Assembly (NCBI RefSeq): GCF_029626225.1 | Contig: NZ_JARUBP010000001.1 | Location: 3,162,001-3,226,000, forward strand | DNA: 64,000 bases | Direction of reading: 5' to 3' | Source of the DNA: Asanoa sp. WMMD1127 | Lineage (GTDB): Bacteria; Actinomycetota; Actinomycetes; Mycobacteriales; Micromonosporaceae | Shown: one piece after another, positions 9,326-64,000 of the stretch | Position numbering within the stretch: the first letter of the stretch is position 1 | Layout of the letters: every line of letters starts with the position of its first letter | The notes under the pieces: generated by a model | Told to the model about the DNA's origin: nothing | The model's database searches: none | The model's input: the letters and a program-made list of their open reading frames with translations, nothing else | Program-made: the position numbers and the translations under genes

Positions 9326-9721
9326 GTGACAGACACATTCGTCTACGACGGCGACTGCGCCTTCTGCACGATGTGCGCCCGCTTCCTGGAGCGCTGGATC
9401 CCCACCAAGGCCGTGGTCATCCCGTGGCAGTTCGCGGACCTGACCACCCTGCGCCTGACCCGCGCCGAGTGCGTGGAAGCGGTCCAATGGTCCCCGGCCG
9501 AGGGCCCGACGGCCGCGGGCCCGGTAGCCATCGCCCGGCTGCTCGGCACCAGCACGGCGCCATGGCGCCTGGCCGGCCGAGTCCTCGGTCTGCGCCCGGT
9601 GACGGCGGTGGCGTGGCCGCTCTACCGCTGGGTGGCCCGCAACCGCCACCGCCTCCCCGGGGGGACCGCGGCGTGCGCCATCCCGGCCAACTCACCCGCC
9701 GCCCCACCACCATCTCCCTGA
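9326..9721 (+). CDS. DCC family thiol-disulfide oxidoreductase (DUF393)
   Basis: 131 aa. The N-terminus TFVYDGDCAFCTMC carries the DxDCxxC motif of the DCC/DUF393 family (cysteines 11, 14 and 17), a thioredoxin-like redox protein; the WPLYRWVARNRHRLPGG near the end is also typical. Start is GTG 9326, set by GGAGG eight bases upstream (9313-9317); a longer reading from an upstream ATG lacks such a site. It lies 4 bases after the HTTM gene and is presumably the redox partner of that membrane enzyme. The tail after the family domain is Ala/Pro-rich. Confidence 0.85.
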   Translation: MTDTFVYDGDCAFCTMCARFLERWIPTKAVVIPWQFADLTTLRLTRAECVEAVQWSPAEGPTAAGPVAIARLLGTSTAPWRLAGRVLGLRPVTAVAWPLYRWVARNRHRLPGGTAACAIPANSPAAPPPSP

Positions 9722-10209
9722 CCCGCGGGCCTGGTGGTCGCTCCCGCTTCGCGGGAAGCCTCAGCGCCGCGGCTTCGCGGGCGCCCTGCCGTGCCGGCCA
9801 GCGGCACCTCCGGGCGGCTCACCCGTCGGCATCGTAGCCGGGGGCCTGGCTGCCAGCATCATGACCGGCGGCGCGATGCCGCCATCCCTTCCCGTCGGGT
9901 CCCTGACCACCAGGCCCGGGCCATCGCCCTCCCCGCCGCTTGATCGTCGCCCTTCCTCGACCTGCCTGGTGCGCGCCGGGCCGGCGCCGGTTCTTGCCCT
10001 TCGCGGGTGCCGTGACCGTCGCGGCTTCGCGGGTGCCGTGTCCGTAGGCGCTTCCGGCCGGCCTGAGCGCTGACCCGGCCGCGGGGTGTTCCGGGTCGCA
10101 AGGGCCCACCCCGGCGCGGTGACGGTGGGCGCCGGGTTGACCTCGGTTATTACGGGTTCGTGACAAAGCGGGGATCGGCCAAGGACATGGTGCTGGCAGC
10201 GTCTGGCGC
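9722..10209. other. 488-bp gene-free region with hairpin and short direct repeats
   Basis: No convincing gene. At 9742-9755 a CCCGC-TTC-GCGGG hairpin follows the DCC gene and may terminate its operon. CTTCGCGGGTGCCGTG occurs twice, at 9999-10014 and 10025-10040 (26-base period), with a degenerate third copy near 9771. The 3' part must hold the alr promoter: TTGACC at 10137-10142 is a possible -35 element, but no good -10 was found. Confidence 0.5.
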
Positions 10210-11337
10210 GTGATCATCCATCCGACCGCGTCGGCTACCGCGTTGGCTGAGGCAGTGGTCGATCTCGATGCGATCGCCGGGAACGTGCGGGCGATCGCGG
10301 CTATGACCAGGACCGACGTGATGGCCGTCGTGAAGGCTGACGGGTTCGGGCACGGGGCCGTGCCGGTCGCTCGGGCCGCGCTCGCCGGCGGGGCCACCTG
10401 GCTCGGGGTCACCTCGTCGGCCGAGGCGCTGGCCTTGCGGGACGGCGGCATCACCGCGCCGATCCTGAGCTGGTTGCATCGCGTCGACGAGGATTTCGAG
10501 CCTGTGCTCGCCGCGGGGGTCGACGTCGCGGTCAGCACGGTGCCGCATCTGCGGGCCGTGGCCGCCGCGGCCGCGCGGCGGCACTCCGTCGCCATGGTGC
10601 AGCTCAAGGTCGATACCGGGTTGTCGCGCAACGGCGCCCGGGGGAGTGACTGGGTCGATCTCGTCGCGTTGGCGCGGGCCTATGAGATGGCCGGGAGCGT
10701 CAAGGTACGGGGCGTCTGGTCACATCTGGCCGACGCCGATCAGCCGGGGTCGCCGCTTCTGCACGGGCAGGTGACCGCGTTCCGGTCCGCGGTCCGGCTG
10801 GCCCGTGCGGCCGGGCTCGATCCGGTCCTGTTGCATCTCGCCAACTCGGCGGCCGCCATCTCCGCCCCGGCGACCCGGTTCGACATCTGCCGCATCGGGC
10901 TCGCCCTCTACGGCGCGCACCCCGCCGCGAACCTGCGGCCAGCCATGGCGCTGCGGTCCACCGTCGTCAACCTGAAACAGGTACCGGCCGGCACTGGCGT
11001 CTCCTACGGCCCGGACCACGTCACCCAACGACCCACCACGCTCGCGCTCGTGCCGATCGGCTTCGCCGACGGGCTGCCGCGCGCCGCGGAGGGACGGGCC
11101 GAGGTCTGGGTCGGTGGCGCCCGCTGCCCGGTGGTCGGGCGGATCGCGATGGACCAGTGCGTCGTCGACGTCGGCGACCGGCCCGTGCGGCTCGGCGACC
11201 CGGTCACCGTGTTCGGACCCGGGCCCGACGCGCCGACCGCCGCCGACTGGGCCCGGTGGGCCGGCACCAACCCGAACGACATCTTGACCGGCATCGGCCC
11301 CCGGGTCGCCCGGCGCTACCAGGAGGTGGCGGCATGA
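10210..11337 (+). CDS. alr: alanine racemase
   Basis: 375 aa, usual length. It interconverts L- and D-alanine with PLP to supply D-Ala for peptidoglycan. The PLP lysine is K42 in VVKADGFGHG (Phe where Tyr is commoner), the catalytic tyrosine is Y266 in GTGVSYG, and the substrate-side motifs VDTGLSRNG, SHLADAD and GRIAMDQCVVDVG are intact. Start GTG 10210 has no obvious ribosome-binding site. The D-Ala-D-Ala ligase gene follows after a tandem array of the gene junction, so the pair supplies the D-Ala-D-Ala dipeptide. Whether this is the only racemase in the genome cannot be seen here. Confidence 0.95.
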   Translation: MIIHPTASATALAEAVVDLDAIAGNVRAIAAMTRTDVMAVVKADGFGHGAVPVARAALAGGATWLGVTSSAEALALRDGGITAPILSWLHRVDEDFEPVLAAGVDVAVSTVPHLRAVAAAAARRHSVAMVQLKVDTGLSRNGARGSDWVDLVALARAYEMAGSVKVRGVWSHLADADQPGSPLLHGQVTAFRSAVRLARAAGLDPVLLHLANSAAAISAPATRFDICRIGLALYGAHPAANLRPAMALRSTVVNLKQVPAGTGVSYGPDHVTQRPTTLALVPIGFADGLPRAAEGRAEVWVGGARCPVVGRIAMDQCVVDVGDRPVRLGDPVTVFGPGPDAPTAADWARWAGTNPNDILTGIGPRVARRYQEVAA

Positions 11338-11390
11338 GGATCGGCATCGGCCCGTGGGTTGCCCGGCGCTACCAGGGGGTGGCGGCATGA
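11334..11390 (+). CDS. 18-residue leader-like peptide, copy of the Alr C-terminus
   Basis: ATG at 11334 overlaps the alr stop (ATGA) and sits behind the strongest Shine-Dalgarno of the array (AGGAGGTGG). It encodes MRIGIGPWVARRYQGVAA and stops at 11388-11390, overlapping the next ATG (11387). Thirteen of the last 15 residues match the Alr C-terminus GIGPRVARRYQEVAA, showing duplication origin. Whether it is translated, and whether the peptide matters or only the ribosome coupling, is unknown. Confidence 0.4.
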   Translation: MRIGIGPWVARRYQGVAA

Positions 11391-11438
11391 GGATCGGCAT
11401 CGGCCGCTGGGTCGCCGGCGCTACCAGGGGGTGGCGGC

Positions 11439-11495
11439 ATGAAGATCGGCATCGGCCCGTGGGTTGCCCGGCGCTGCCAGGGGGTGGCGGCATGA
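11439..11495 (+). CDS. second 18-residue leader-like peptide before ddl
   Basis: ATG 11439 to TGA 11493-11495 encodes MKIGIGPWVARRCQGVAA, a second copy of the duplicated Alr C-terminal peptide; its stop overlaps the canonical ddl ATG (11492). The intervening ATG at 11387 is instead in frame with ddl because the third unit lost one base, giving a possible 35-residue N-terminal extension of Ddl. Confidence 0.35.
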   Translation: MKIGIGPWVARRCQGVAA

Positions 11496-12478
11496 AGATC
11501 GCTGTGTTGTACGGCGGCCGCAGTGGCGAGCACGAGGTGTCCCGAAACTCCGCGGCGAGCATCATCGCGAACCTAGGCCCCGCGTACGACGTGACCGAGG
11601 TGTTGATCGGCCGCGACGGGCAGTGGCACGTCGACCAGACGCCCGTCGACCTCGCCGGCGCACTTAACGAGCTGACCCACCAGGACGTCGTCTTCCCCGC
11701 CCTGCACGGCCCCTACGGGGAGGACGGCACCGTGCAGGCCGTGCTGGAGTGGATCGGCGTCCCGTACGTCGGTAACGGGGTGCTCGCCAGCGCCGCCGGT
11801 ATGGACAAGGCGGTCACCAAGACCCTGCTCGCCGCCGAAGGCCTGCGGGTGGCCGGCGGCGTGACCCTGCGCGCGGGCCAGCACCCGACGGACACCGACC
11901 AGCGGCTCCCCGTGTTCGTCAAGCCCGCCCGCGCCGGGTCGAGCCTCGGCGTCTCCCGGGTCACCGACTGGTGGCAGCTTCCGGAAGCGCTCGCCACGGC
12001 GCGCATGTTCGACGACAAGGTGCTGATCGAGCCCGCCATCCGCGGCCGCGAGGTCGACGTCGGCGTGTTGGAGCATCCGGACGGCCGCGTCGAGGCCGGC
12101 CCGCCGCTGGAGATCAACGTGACCGGCGAGGGGTTCTTCGACTACGACGCGAAATACCGCGCTGGCGGCGCCCACTTCCAGATCCCGGCCCATCTCGACC
12201 CCGCGATGACCGAAACGTTGAAGGACCGGGCGATCCGCGCATTCCAGGCGCTCGGGTGCCGCGGCCTGATCCGGGTCGACTTCTTCCTGCCCGACGACGA
12301 GGACGAGCCCGTCGTCAACGAGGTCAACACGTTCCCGGGGTTCACGAGCCAGTCGCAGTACCCGCAGATCTGGCAGCGGGCCGGCATCGCCTACCCGGAA
12401 CTCCTGGACATCCTCATCGCCGGCGCCCTCAGAAATCGGCAGGGCAGGTCAGCGGTCCCCGGCGCTGCTCGCCGTTGA
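11492..12478 (+). CDS. ddl: D-alanine-D-alanine ligase
   Basis: 328 aa, ATP-grasp enzyme joining two D-Ala for peptidoglycan precursors. Visible: N-terminal KIAVLYGGRSGEHEVS, the ATP-binding VKPARAGSSLGV, FFDYDAKY of the omega loop and metal-binding VNEVNTFPGFT. The Tyr in DAKY is the residue found in D-Ala-D-Ala ligases, not in VanA-type D-Ala-D-Lac ligases, so it is not a resistance-type ligase. Start ATG 11492 matches the family N-terminus; an in-frame ATG at 11387 would add 35 residues derived from the repeat array. The gene ends tail to tail with the lipoprotein gene, overlapping it by 50 bases. Confidence 0.94.
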   Translation: MKIAVLYGGRSGEHEVSRNSAASIIANLGPAYDVTEVLIGRDGQWHVDQTPVDLAGALNELTHQDVVFPALHGPYGEDGTVQAVLEWIGVPYVGNGVLASAAGMDKAVTKTLLAAEGLRVAGGVTLRAGQHPTDTDQRLPVFVKPARAGSSLGVSRVTDWWQLPEALATARMFDDKVLIEPAIRGREVDVGVLEHPDGRVEAGPPLEINVTGEGFFDYDAKYRAGGAHFQIPAHLDPAMTETLKDRAIRAFQALGCRGLIRVDFFLPDDEDEPVVNEVNTFPGFTSQSQYPQIWQRAGIAYPELLDILIAGALRNRQGRSAVPGAARR

Positions 12479-61758: not shown

Positions 61759-63144
61759 ATGGCCACGACCGTCGCACCCACGATCACCACACCCGCCACC
61801 CGTACGCGCGACCTCCGCCGCTTCTGGCGCTGGACGCTCGCGGTCCTGGCACCCCTGCCGCTGCTCGCTCTCGCGCTCGAGAACATCGCCGCGCCGTGGC
61901 CGCTCGGCGGCAACTTCGCCCGGATGGTCGCCGACGCGGCCGCCCAACCCGGGCGGGCCCAACTCGCCCTGTGGCTGTCGCTGTTCTTCAGCCTCGCCAT
62001 CGTGCCGGCGACCATGGCCGTGCTGTGGACCGCCCGTCGGGGCGCGCCGAGGCTCACGCTGGCCGCCGGCATCCTGCTGCTGCTCGCGTTCTCGGCCAGC
62101 CTGCCCGACAGCGACCTGGCCGGCGTCGTGGCGGCCGACAAGGGGCTCGACCCGACCGCGGTCGCGACGATCGACGACGCGGTCTGGTCGTTCCCCAGCG
62201 TCGGCATCCTCGCGCTGATCTTCCTGATTGGACAGACGGTCGGTTTCGTTCTGCTGGGCCTGGCGCTCTGGCGGGCCCGGGTCGTGCCGGCCTGGCTCGC
62301 CGCCGTCCTGGCGTTGTCGGGGCCGGCCCACCTGCTCGCACCCGGCGGCAACGTGGGTCCGGCGATCGCCTGGGCGATGACCGCCATCGGGTACGCGGGC
62401 GCGTCGGTCGCGCTCGTGCGCACCCGGGACGAGGACTTCGACCTGCCGGCCGCCGCGCCGGCCGGACCGGTGGCACGCGACGCCCGTACCGCCTGGCGTT
62501 GGCTCCTGGCGCTCGCCGCCGTCCCGCTCGCCGTGTTCGTCACGGTGTTTTGCTGGTTCCTGCCCTACGACGGCGACGACTCACCCCGGGAGATCTTCGA
62601 CGCGCTGGTCGCCGCCACCACCTACCAGCGGACGGCGCTGGCGGTCGGGACCGTCGTGGTGCTCACCGGGTTCGCGGGCATCCTCGCGGTCGCCTGGCAC
62701 ACCCGCCGCCGCACGCCGCTGCTCACCACGATCGGCCTGTTCCTCGCGGTGCCGGGCTACACGGCCCTGTTCGCCGGCGGCTCGTACGGCGACGTCGTCG
62801 CCTACCTGGTCGGCACGCGGCCCGGCCTGGACCGCGAGGTCGCCTTCCAGCTCACGTCGGGGATGGAGGCCAGCCCGCAGCCGAACCTGCTGGTGCTGGT
62901 GTTCGTGGCCGGCCACCTGCTGGGCACCGTGCTGGTCGGCGCGGCGCTGTGGCGGTCGCGGCTCGCGCCGACCTGGCTGGCGATCGGCTTCACGTTGTCG
63001 CAGCCGATCCACCTGACGTCGGTGCTGACGGGCATCCGCTGGATCGACCTGATCGGCTGGGGCCTGACGGCGGCCGGCTTCGCCTGGGCGGCCTGGCGAC
63101 TGATCCGCCAACCGAACGACGAGTTCGACCTGCCGCCGGTGTGA
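61759..63144 (+). CDS. membrane protein with internal duplication
   Basis: 461 aa, about twelve helices in two halves of similar order. The first half ends VGFVLLGLALWRARVVPAWL ... DEDFDLP (near 220); the second ends LGTVLVGAALWRSRLAPTWL ... NDEFDLPPV (C-terminus). The repeated LALWR, P-W-L and FDLP motifs show duplication of a ~220-residue unit. Single-unit relatives occur in actinobacteria as unnamed membrane proteins. Coupled to the 121-aa gene upstream (1 base). No active-site motif recognised. Confidence 0.8.
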   Translation: MATTVAPTITTPATRTRDLRRFWRWTLAVLAPLPLLALALENIAAPWPLGGNFARMVADAAAQPGRAQLALWLSLFFSLAIVPATMAVLWTARRGAPRLTLAAGILLLLAFSASLPDSDLAGVVAADKGLDPTAVATIDDAVWSFPSVGILALIFLIGQTVGFVLLGLALWRARVVPAWLAAVLALSGPAHLLAPGGNVGPAIAWAMTAIGYAGASVALVRTRDEDFDLPAAAPAGPVARDARTAWRWLLALAAVPLAVFVTVFCWFLPYDGDDSPREIFDALVAATTYQRTALAVGTVVVLTGFAGILAVAWHTRRRTPLLTTIGLFLAVPGYTALFAGGSYGDVVAYLVGTRPGLDREVAFQLTSGMEASPQPNLLVLVFVAGHLLGTVLVGAALWRSRLAPTWLAIGFTLSQPIHLTSVLTGIRWIDLIGWGLTAAGFAWAAWRLIRQPNDEFDLPPV

Positions 63145-63204
63145 CGGACCGGCCGGACCGGCCGCTCGCGAGGAGCGCCGCCAGGCCCGCCGGTGTGCCG
63201 GGTC

Positions 63205-63246
63205 GGCCGGCCTGGTCAGCGCGCGATGAGCGCCGCCAGGCCGGCC
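63205..63246 (-). terminator. 11-bp hairpin at the end of the glycosyltransferase gene
   Basis: GGCCGGCCTGG (63205-63215) and CCAGGCCGGCC (63236-63246) pair exactly around the stop codon at 63216. A GGACCGG repeat lies further on. It could end both convergent transcripts. Confidence 0.45.
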
Positions 63247-64000
63247 GGGCCCGGCGCCGCGAGGATCTCGGCGCCGATCCGCTCCGCCGCCTTGCGGTAG
63301 TCGGGCCGGGCCAGGACCTCGCGGACCGCCGTGCCCACCGCGTCCGCCGTGGGTGTGTCGGTCTTGAGGTTGACGCCGACGCCCGACCAGGCCACCCGCG
63401 CGCTGACCTCGATCTTGTCCTCCGAGGTGCCGGCGACGACCACCGGGACGCCGTGCCGGAGCGCGAACTGCACCCCGCCGTAGCCGCCGTTGGTGACCAT
63501 CACGTCGGTCAGGGGCAGAAGCAGGTCGTACGGCAGGTAGGAGGCGACCCGCACGTTGGGCGGCAGCGGGCCTTCGAGCGACTCCACCGGTCGGCCGCCC
63601 GTGCTGACCACCACGAGCACGTCGTCGCCGGCGAGCGCCGCCATCGTCGGGCGGATCAGCGCCGAGTAGTCCTGGTTGGCGACCGTGCCCTGGGTGACGT
63701 GCACGACCGGACGGCCGGCGGACAGCTCGCCCCACCACTCGGGCAGCGTCTCGTCGCCGGCGCCGCCCCGGCTGACCGGCCCGACGAAGTGCACGAGCCG
63801 GTCACGGTCGGGCCGCGGATATTCGAAGCCGCGCACGGTGAACTGGACGATCGCGTCCGTCCACGATGGCCAGTCGAGGACGAACCCCGGCAGGGCCCGG
63901 CCGGTCGCCGTGCGGTGCACGCGCTGCGCGTACCGTTGGACGCTTCCGAAGACGACCTTCTCCAGGGCGACGTTGAGGAATCCGTTGCGCAGGCGGCCGA
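63216..64000 (-). CDS. GT1 (MGT-type) glycosyltransferase, 3' part only
   Basis: Partial: the reading frame is open to the window end, so the N-terminus is missing; at least 261 codons are visible. The C-terminal nucleotide-sugar domain is present, with VVHVTQGTVANQD and the family motif NGGYGGVQFALRHGVPVVVAGTSEDK, in place of the HGG(x)nE/Q-type sugar site of macrolide and UGT enzymes. It probably glycosylates a small molecule or lipid. An internal GTG at 63920 is not the true start: codons before it continue in frame (GRLRNGFLNVALEK). Confidence 0.88.
   Translation of the reverse strand, partial: GRLRNGFLNVALEKVVFGSVQRYAQRVHRTATGRALPGFVLDWPSWTDAIVQFTVRGFEYPRPDRDRLVHFVGPVSRGGAGDETLPEWWGELSAGRPVVHVTQGTVANQDYSALIRPTMAALAGDDVLVVVSTGGRPVESLEGPLPPNVRVASYLPYDLLLPLTDVMVTNGGYGGVQFALRHGVPVVVAGTSEDKIEVSARVAWSGVGVNLKTDTPTADAVGTAVREVLARPDYRKAAERIGAEILAAPGPAGLAALIAR

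Follow-up and report, generated by a model that had tools for sequence, protein, structure and literature searches.

A fourfold tandem array of the overlapping alr–ddl junction in one Asanoa lineage, most likely tolerated and not a selected switch

The overlapping junction between the alr and ddl genes of Asanoa sp. WMMD1127 occurs four times in tandem in the stretch of 64,000 nucleotides analysed here (the window), and the array is most likely tolerated and not a selected switch. With moderate confidence, we interpret it as a minisatellite on a −4 stop/start overlap that the two genes already shared, probably built by duplication in at least two steps and leaving a predicted coupled route to a longer form of Ddl.

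The alr gene (10210–11337, forward strand) encodes an alanine racemase of 375 residues, which matches the Pfam families PF01168 and PF00842 as well as TIGR00492 (256 bits; cut-off 168). The ddl gene (11492–12478, forward strand) encodes a D-alanine–D-alanine ligase of 328 residues that scores 368 bits with NF002528 and 314 bits with TIGR01205, both above the cut-off, and its start at 11492 aligns with the N-termini of the ten relatives compared. Tandem Repeats Finder (TRF) and a comparison of the units delineate four head-to-tail copies at 11289–11501, with lengths of 53, 53, 52 and 53 nt, in agreement with the coordinates and spacings given for a fourfold junction in the first-pass annotation. 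TRF describes the array both with a period of 53 (4.0 copies, 91% matches) and with a period of 105 (2.0 copies, 93% matches), the scores being 349 and 377; the units themselves span 11289–11499 and TRF carries the array on to 11501. Each unit comprises the 46 terminal coding bases of alr, up to the A of ATGA, followed by TGA and the next four bases, and thus contains the alr 3′ end, a Shine-Dalgarno sequence, the ATGA overlap and the bases after it. Unit U1 (11289–11341) carries the genuine alr 3′ end with AGGAGGTGG and ATGA at 11334, and is the unit that aligns to the single unit of the sister species. U2 (11342–11394, 53 nt) has ATGA at 11387, U3 (11395–11446, 52 nt) has a CCC run short of one C and ATGA at 11439, and U4 (11447–11499, 53 nt) includes the ATGA at 11492 that starts ddl proper; all are on the forward strand, and the Shine-Dalgarno sequence and ATGA are intact in all four. 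The identity between U1 and U2 at a lag of 53 is 92%, compared with a maximum of 57% in 20000 random draws from the window (draws close to the array were skipped), so that the copies lie head to tail at an identity above chance, as in a minisatellite or tandem duplication. Pairs of units are 2–6 substitutions apart, with U3 also lacking one base, and differences of this extent speak against a path duplicated during assembly. The four-unit array at the alr–ddl junction is confirmed as genuine. An antisense open reading frame running through the array (10720–11565, minus strand) was left out of consideration as a frame over alr that the G+C content probably explains.

The reading frames across the array follow from the unit lengths. 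A predicted 18-codon frame, mini1 (MRIGIGPWVARRYQGVAA; 11334–11390, forward strand), overlaps the alr stop, copies the Alr C-terminus and ends in a stop codon at 11388–11390 that is overlapped by the ATG at 11387. Because U3 has 52 bases, the frame opened by this ATG enters ddl in frame: from 11387 to 11492 there are 105 nt (53 + 52), or 35 codons, and the frame is open through U3, U4 and ddl, giving a possible long Ddl of 363 residues (35 + 328; 11387–12478, forward strand). A second predicted 18-codon frame, mini2 (MKIGIGPWVARRCQGVAA; 11439–11495, forward strand), starts within the long-Ddl frame and its stop overlaps the ddl start. The first-pass annotation had proposed a Ddl with 35 extra residues arising from the short third unit, which the sequence supports together with the frame logic behind it, a 53-base unit keeping the ATGA chain and the sum of 105 setting the second ATG in the ddl frame. 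Its two 18-residue peptides copying the Alr C-terminus stand as reading frames, but they do not chain to each other: mini1 runs by its stop into the overlapping start of the long-Ddl frame, and mini2 begins inside that frame and has a stop that overlaps the start of ddl.

A model of the 363-residue Ddl built with 11 aligned sequences has a mean pLDDT of 77, with values below 50 for residues 1–33, which are unstructured in the model; the fold begins at the strand formed by residues 36–43. The 35 extra residues are thus probably disordered, and a disordered extension of this kind would be compatible with a harmless tag, although the model has no bearing on activity.

The favoured sequence of events starts from minisatellite-type tandem duplication, which would have hit the existing −4 overlap in one Asanoa lineage. 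Since 53 nt is 2 mod 3, each unit added without an indel would form a coupled small cistron running from one ATGA to the next, and coupling would remain uncut. Loss of one base in the third unit would then have brought ddl into the frame opened at 11387. From alr, the coupled route is predicted to pass through mini1 to the 363-residue Ddl with two reinitiations, leaving mini2 off the path, and the native 328-residue Ddl would come only from fresh initiation at 11439 (mini2, followed by coupling) or at 11492. We infer coupling, reinitiation, production of the long form and near-neutrality. As a general rule, a duplication of 2 mod 3 in length across a −4 overlap should leave the chain intact, and a summed duplication length of 0 mod 3 should lead to fusion with the downstream gene.

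The ancestral state of the junction is indicated by the relatives. In all five other Asanoa species the junction contains a single unit, as judged from pairs of DNA matches that have one unit of the subject sequence in common, which answers the proposal of the first-pass annotation to count units in sibling species, and the single-unit junction has a −4 overlap in each (ATGA in four, GTGA in one). We compared 44 related alr–ddl loci, comprising the five of the same genus, six from genomes outside the genus (which could repeat a named species) and 33 from named species. Excluded from this set were L014 (with the ddl match before alr), L064–L067 (four same-genus genomes already counted), the repeat fetches L034–L044 and any locus at which the two matches were not both present; L092, with ddl at a distance of about 1.3 kb, and L093, whose ddl match is cut short, were retained. 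At 43 of the 44 loci ddl lies at most 120 nt from the alr stop, and at 36 an xTGA overlap is present in the ddl frame (32 ATGA, three GTGA and one TTGA), so that the stop/start overlap expected of a translationally coupled pair is conserved at 36 of the 44 related loci and in all five same-genus species. No tandem array with a period of at least 30 was found within 250 nt of the junction at any of the 44 loci; two period-21 arrays (47 and 48 nt) both lie upstream of the alr stop. The overlapping junction is common and the array is confined to one lineage by these counts, and with one unit in all five sister species the array is an ordinary overlapping junction that has expanded in a single lineage, absent from the relatives examined. 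The surrounding genes are collinear with those of the four Asanoa loci compared (downstream in all four, upstream in three). In Paractinoplanes ovalisporus, the same alr–ddl locus carries an 80-nt array of 4.3 copies soon after the ddl match (L111, 8432–8776).

The sequences of the units retain traces of how the array was built. U2 and U4 differ by only two substitutions and share derived bases, the other five pairs differ by 4–6, and the start context is ATGAGGAT in both U1 and U2 and ATGAAGAT in both U3 and U4. Together with the 105-nt TRF period, the closeness of U2 and U4 and the paired start contexts suggest that the array probably arose in at least two steps, from one unit to two and from the pair to four. 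The divergence between units (∼4–11%) exceeds what an assembly duplicate would show and stays far under the synonymous divergence between ddl and its sister-species counterparts (0.43–0.84), which fits an array that arose once the species had separated, although gene conversion between units could make the array look younger than its real age. With four units, selection and youth are not separable as causes of the intact Shine-Dalgarno and ATGA sequences. A pattern search of the own genome allowing up to three mismatches returned three matches, all within the array and none elsewhere. A sequence search with E values up to 10 gave at least 41 matches (40 of the 104 first-look candidates were scored), of which two lie in the array and the remaining 39 listed have E values of 0.007 or worse. 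A dispersed or mobile unit was rejected, the unit being found at the alr–ddl locus only among the matches scored.

The region upstream of alr also appears to be lineage-specific. About 435 nt (window 9700–10134) separate the aligned DNA at a DCC1-like gene from alr, compared with 53–83 nt for the same interval in three sister loci (L064, L065 and L067), and the extra stretch has no good copy elsewhere in the genome, where it has one weak 47-base match. It includes a 26-nt tandem repeat.

Tandem arrays are frequent in the genome as a whole, and an accidental origin of the one at the alr–ddl junction is sufficient for this reason. With thresholds of at least 30 for the period and at least 140 for the score, we found 36 arrays in 0.8 Mb of the own genome (40 stretches, from the first 5.2 Mb), 47 in 1.2 Mb (60 stretches) and 17 in 0.4 Mb of one sister genome, the density in the own genome being about 40 per Mb. 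Genes were called with a simple codon-position G+C rule, which makes the counts of arrays and junctions rough and does not flag the alr–ddl array because its small cistrons are shorter than 100 codons. None of the 47 other arrays in the 1.2 Mb of the own genome spans any of the 47 −4 junctions detected there, and none of the 17 in the 0.4 Mb of the sister genome spans any of its 27. Random placement of 47 arrays, estimated from the measured array lengths (mean 289), puts 0.54 on a detected −4 junction per 1.2 Mb, or about 3.6 per genome; under such placement a sample like the own one would contain no array on a junction in about 57% of cases, and a special cause is therefore neither supported nor excluded. 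The true figure is probably lower, since arrays avoid called gene starts (two observed, 7.9 expected). A preference for gene stops was considered and rejected (five observed and 8.1 expected in the own genome; three and 2.9 in the sister). Where closely spaced genes on one strand lack a −4 overlap, six arrays in the own genome and two in the sister genome sit at the gene ends or between them. Pointing the other way from the high background, the neighbourhood of alr–ddl in relatives is poor in arrays, with none in 52.6 kb from four Asanoa loci and one in 0.39 Mb from 31 other loci. A 55-nt repeat of 2.1 copies lies at a called gene end in the window (63133–63248). Another gene-end minisatellite in the own genome, at about 893344–893820 of C1 (L184, 13344–13820), comprises five copies of 96 nt, in which the 3′ end of a 314-residue open reading frame, stop included, recurs into the following spacer. 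Further large minisatellites lie outside called genes, with units of 83 nt (10.4 copies; L187, 4172–5039), 57 nt (9.2 copies; L196, 1720–2241) and 69 nt (8.7 copies; L193, 18498–19100).

The part of the favoured account that depends on a single base is the long Ddl. If the loss in U3 were a sequencing error, the true array would consist of four 53-base units with three chained minipeptides and no long Ddl. Loss of a base from a short run of C is a common type of error, and the missing base could be a read error of this kind because it falls in such a run (CCC to CC); moreover, the other three units all have 53 nt. On the other hand, neither the window nor the 40 stretches of the own genome contain ambiguous bases, and U3 is four substitutions from every other unit, as befits a separately resolved copy. 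We regard such an error as unlikely, although by no means negligible.

The first-pass annotation went further and saw in the array a genetic dial for the Alr:Ddl ratio. According to this proposal, the extra coupled junctions lower Ddl relative to Alr, or the lost base restores it, and the number of units, reversible by recombination, is selected to tune the ratio. The architecture is the right one, with four intact ATGA and Shine-Dalgarno sites, and the missing base in U3 leaves two reinitiations instead of four on the coupled path to ddl, which would look compensatory; in excerpts of a published study, expression tracked repeat length at one mycobacterial gene (PMC2734929). Against it, no variation in unit number was seen in a sample of one genome of the own species and five other same-genus species that each have one unit, and folding of 11270–11540 gives z = +0.84 relative to shuffles, so that RNA structure beyond composition was rejected as a function of the array.

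The Shine-Dalgarno sequences do not provide the trade-off that had been proposed, in which the strongest site went to the first minipeptide and ddl was left with GGGGGTGG. The 16S 3′ end of the genome is GGATCACCTCCTTTCT, and the computed pairing energies are −15.4 kcal/mol (U1) and −14.5 kcal/mol (U2, U3 and U4), a small difference that lies within the range of the five sister junctions (−6.5 to −15.4 kcal/mol). These single junctions have GGGGG in four cases and GGGG in one, and AGGAGG in none, for which reason the G run is ancestral and the AGGAGG in U1, which brings a change from Gly to Glu in Alr, derived. The sister species thus reverse the proposed history: U1 gained a site and ddl lost none. 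Accessibility at the own four junctions and in four sister loci gave no clear signal, although the own sites tend to be more closed: the computed unpaired probability of the Shine-Dalgarno sequence is at most 0.0025 at all four own junctions and 0.0003–0.0445 in the sisters, and the start-codon values overlap (0.008–0.157 and 0.002–0.545, respectively).

The genomic context likewise does not call for a dial. The genome contains a second alr (G000:C1:955766–956860, 49% identity; two alr matches in all) and two other ddl-like genes (53% and 38%), from which the pair in the window would be an extra set, and the supply of ddl need not depend on the array locus. The 53% match (G000:C1:3544177–3545010; L140) runs over one stop codon, and three of its five sister counterparts also have a stop codon inside the match; the true end of this gene is probably within the match. 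Pairwise dN/dS between the own genome and the sisters is 0.14–0.25 for ddl and 0.18–0.21 for alr, similar to the values among the sisters (0.14–0.32 and 0.17–0.25), and both genes look to be under purifying selection. Loss of ddl function as the cause of a tolerated array was set aside, as pairwise dN/dS shows no sign of it, although these values integrate over the whole period after the species diverged and would miss a recent relaxation. The array alone does not demonstrate regulation, and with an accidental origin sufficient given the base rate of arrays, the dial is unsupported and, in our view, distinctly improbable.

An extended version would make the array a locally formed and immobile equivalent of a mycobacterial interspersed repetitive unit (MIRU). 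In it, a self-copying junction would gain coupled small cistrons by duplications of 2 mod 3 without breaking the operon, and slips of one base would decide whether ddl takes its native, its long or its minipeptide-chained form, as a heritable and reversible setting of Alr:Ddl; we regard this version as highly unlikely. Assembly errors are known to arise at tandem repeats, in excerpts of the literature (PMC6868369), and the sister species have one unit, but the distinct nested substitutions in the units would not be produced by a duplicated read path, and an artefact of a single-unit junction is extremely improbable. We return to a tolerated minisatellite on an existing overlap as the preferred reading of the locus.

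Among known systems, the closest precedent is offered by the mycobacterial MIRUs, which are described as mobile. In the available excerpts of the cited papers, these units measure about 40–100 bp and occupy 41 places in one genome (PMC2734929), and their small open reading frame shares a −4 overlap with the gene next to it (PMC12548453). At senX3–regX3, tandem MIRUs of 77 and 53 bp lie between two co-directed genes (PMC4213456) and their copy number differs between two vaccine strains (PMC9392950). The Asanoa units (53, 53, 52 and 53 nt) fall within this size range and their small reading frames share the −4 overlap with the flanking gene (ATGA at 11334, 11387, 11439 and 11492). Unlike MIRUs, which are chromosome-wide, the Asanoa unit copies the 3′ end of its own host gene and was found at alr–ddl only. 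As dispersed copies were not found and the unit is built from the host gene, by analogy it would work like a MIRU without being one, and the shared size of 53 is taken as coincidence.

Other parallels concern coupling and repeats separately. The alr–ddl pair resembles ATGA termination–reinitiation pairs in its xTGA overlap (36 of 44 loci) and in having the Shine-Dalgarno sequence inside the upstream gene, but here the overlap is present four times with small cistrons between the genes. In the bicistronic designs of synthetic biology the leader stop and the target start overlap. Excerpts of the relevant papers describe a short leader reading frame ahead of the target gene (PMC5995908), the leader cistron delivering ribosomes to it (PMC12548453); the Asanoa case shares the short leader, but it occurs naturally, follows a complete gene and is present in several copies. 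In the excerpts available from Huber et al. (2019; PMC6728339), most overlapping pairs tested were coupled and the role of the Shine-Dalgarno sequence was variable. Tandem repeats between two genes also occur upstream of fpg1 in M. tuberculosis, where, in the excerpted text, longer repeats went with more mRNA and the spacers were far shorter in species outside the complex (PMC2734929); repeat length was compared with mRNA level there, whereas the Asanoa array is known from sequence alone. In the excerpted part of PMC10827132, a preprint about how S. aureus is supplied with D-alanine, the coupling concerns another gene, dat, and lends no direct support to the alr–ddl case. A tandemly duplicated coupling junction was not recognised among the titles and abstract openings covered, and we do not claim its absence from print. 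Compared with these systems, the Asanoa array suggests a simple local route from an ordinary gene overlap to a MIRU-like chain of coupled small reading frames, with a clear frame rule (a unit length of 2 mod 3 preserving the chain and 0 mod 3 fusing it to the next gene), and would serve as a natural test case for the number of successive reinitiations that an operon can bear.
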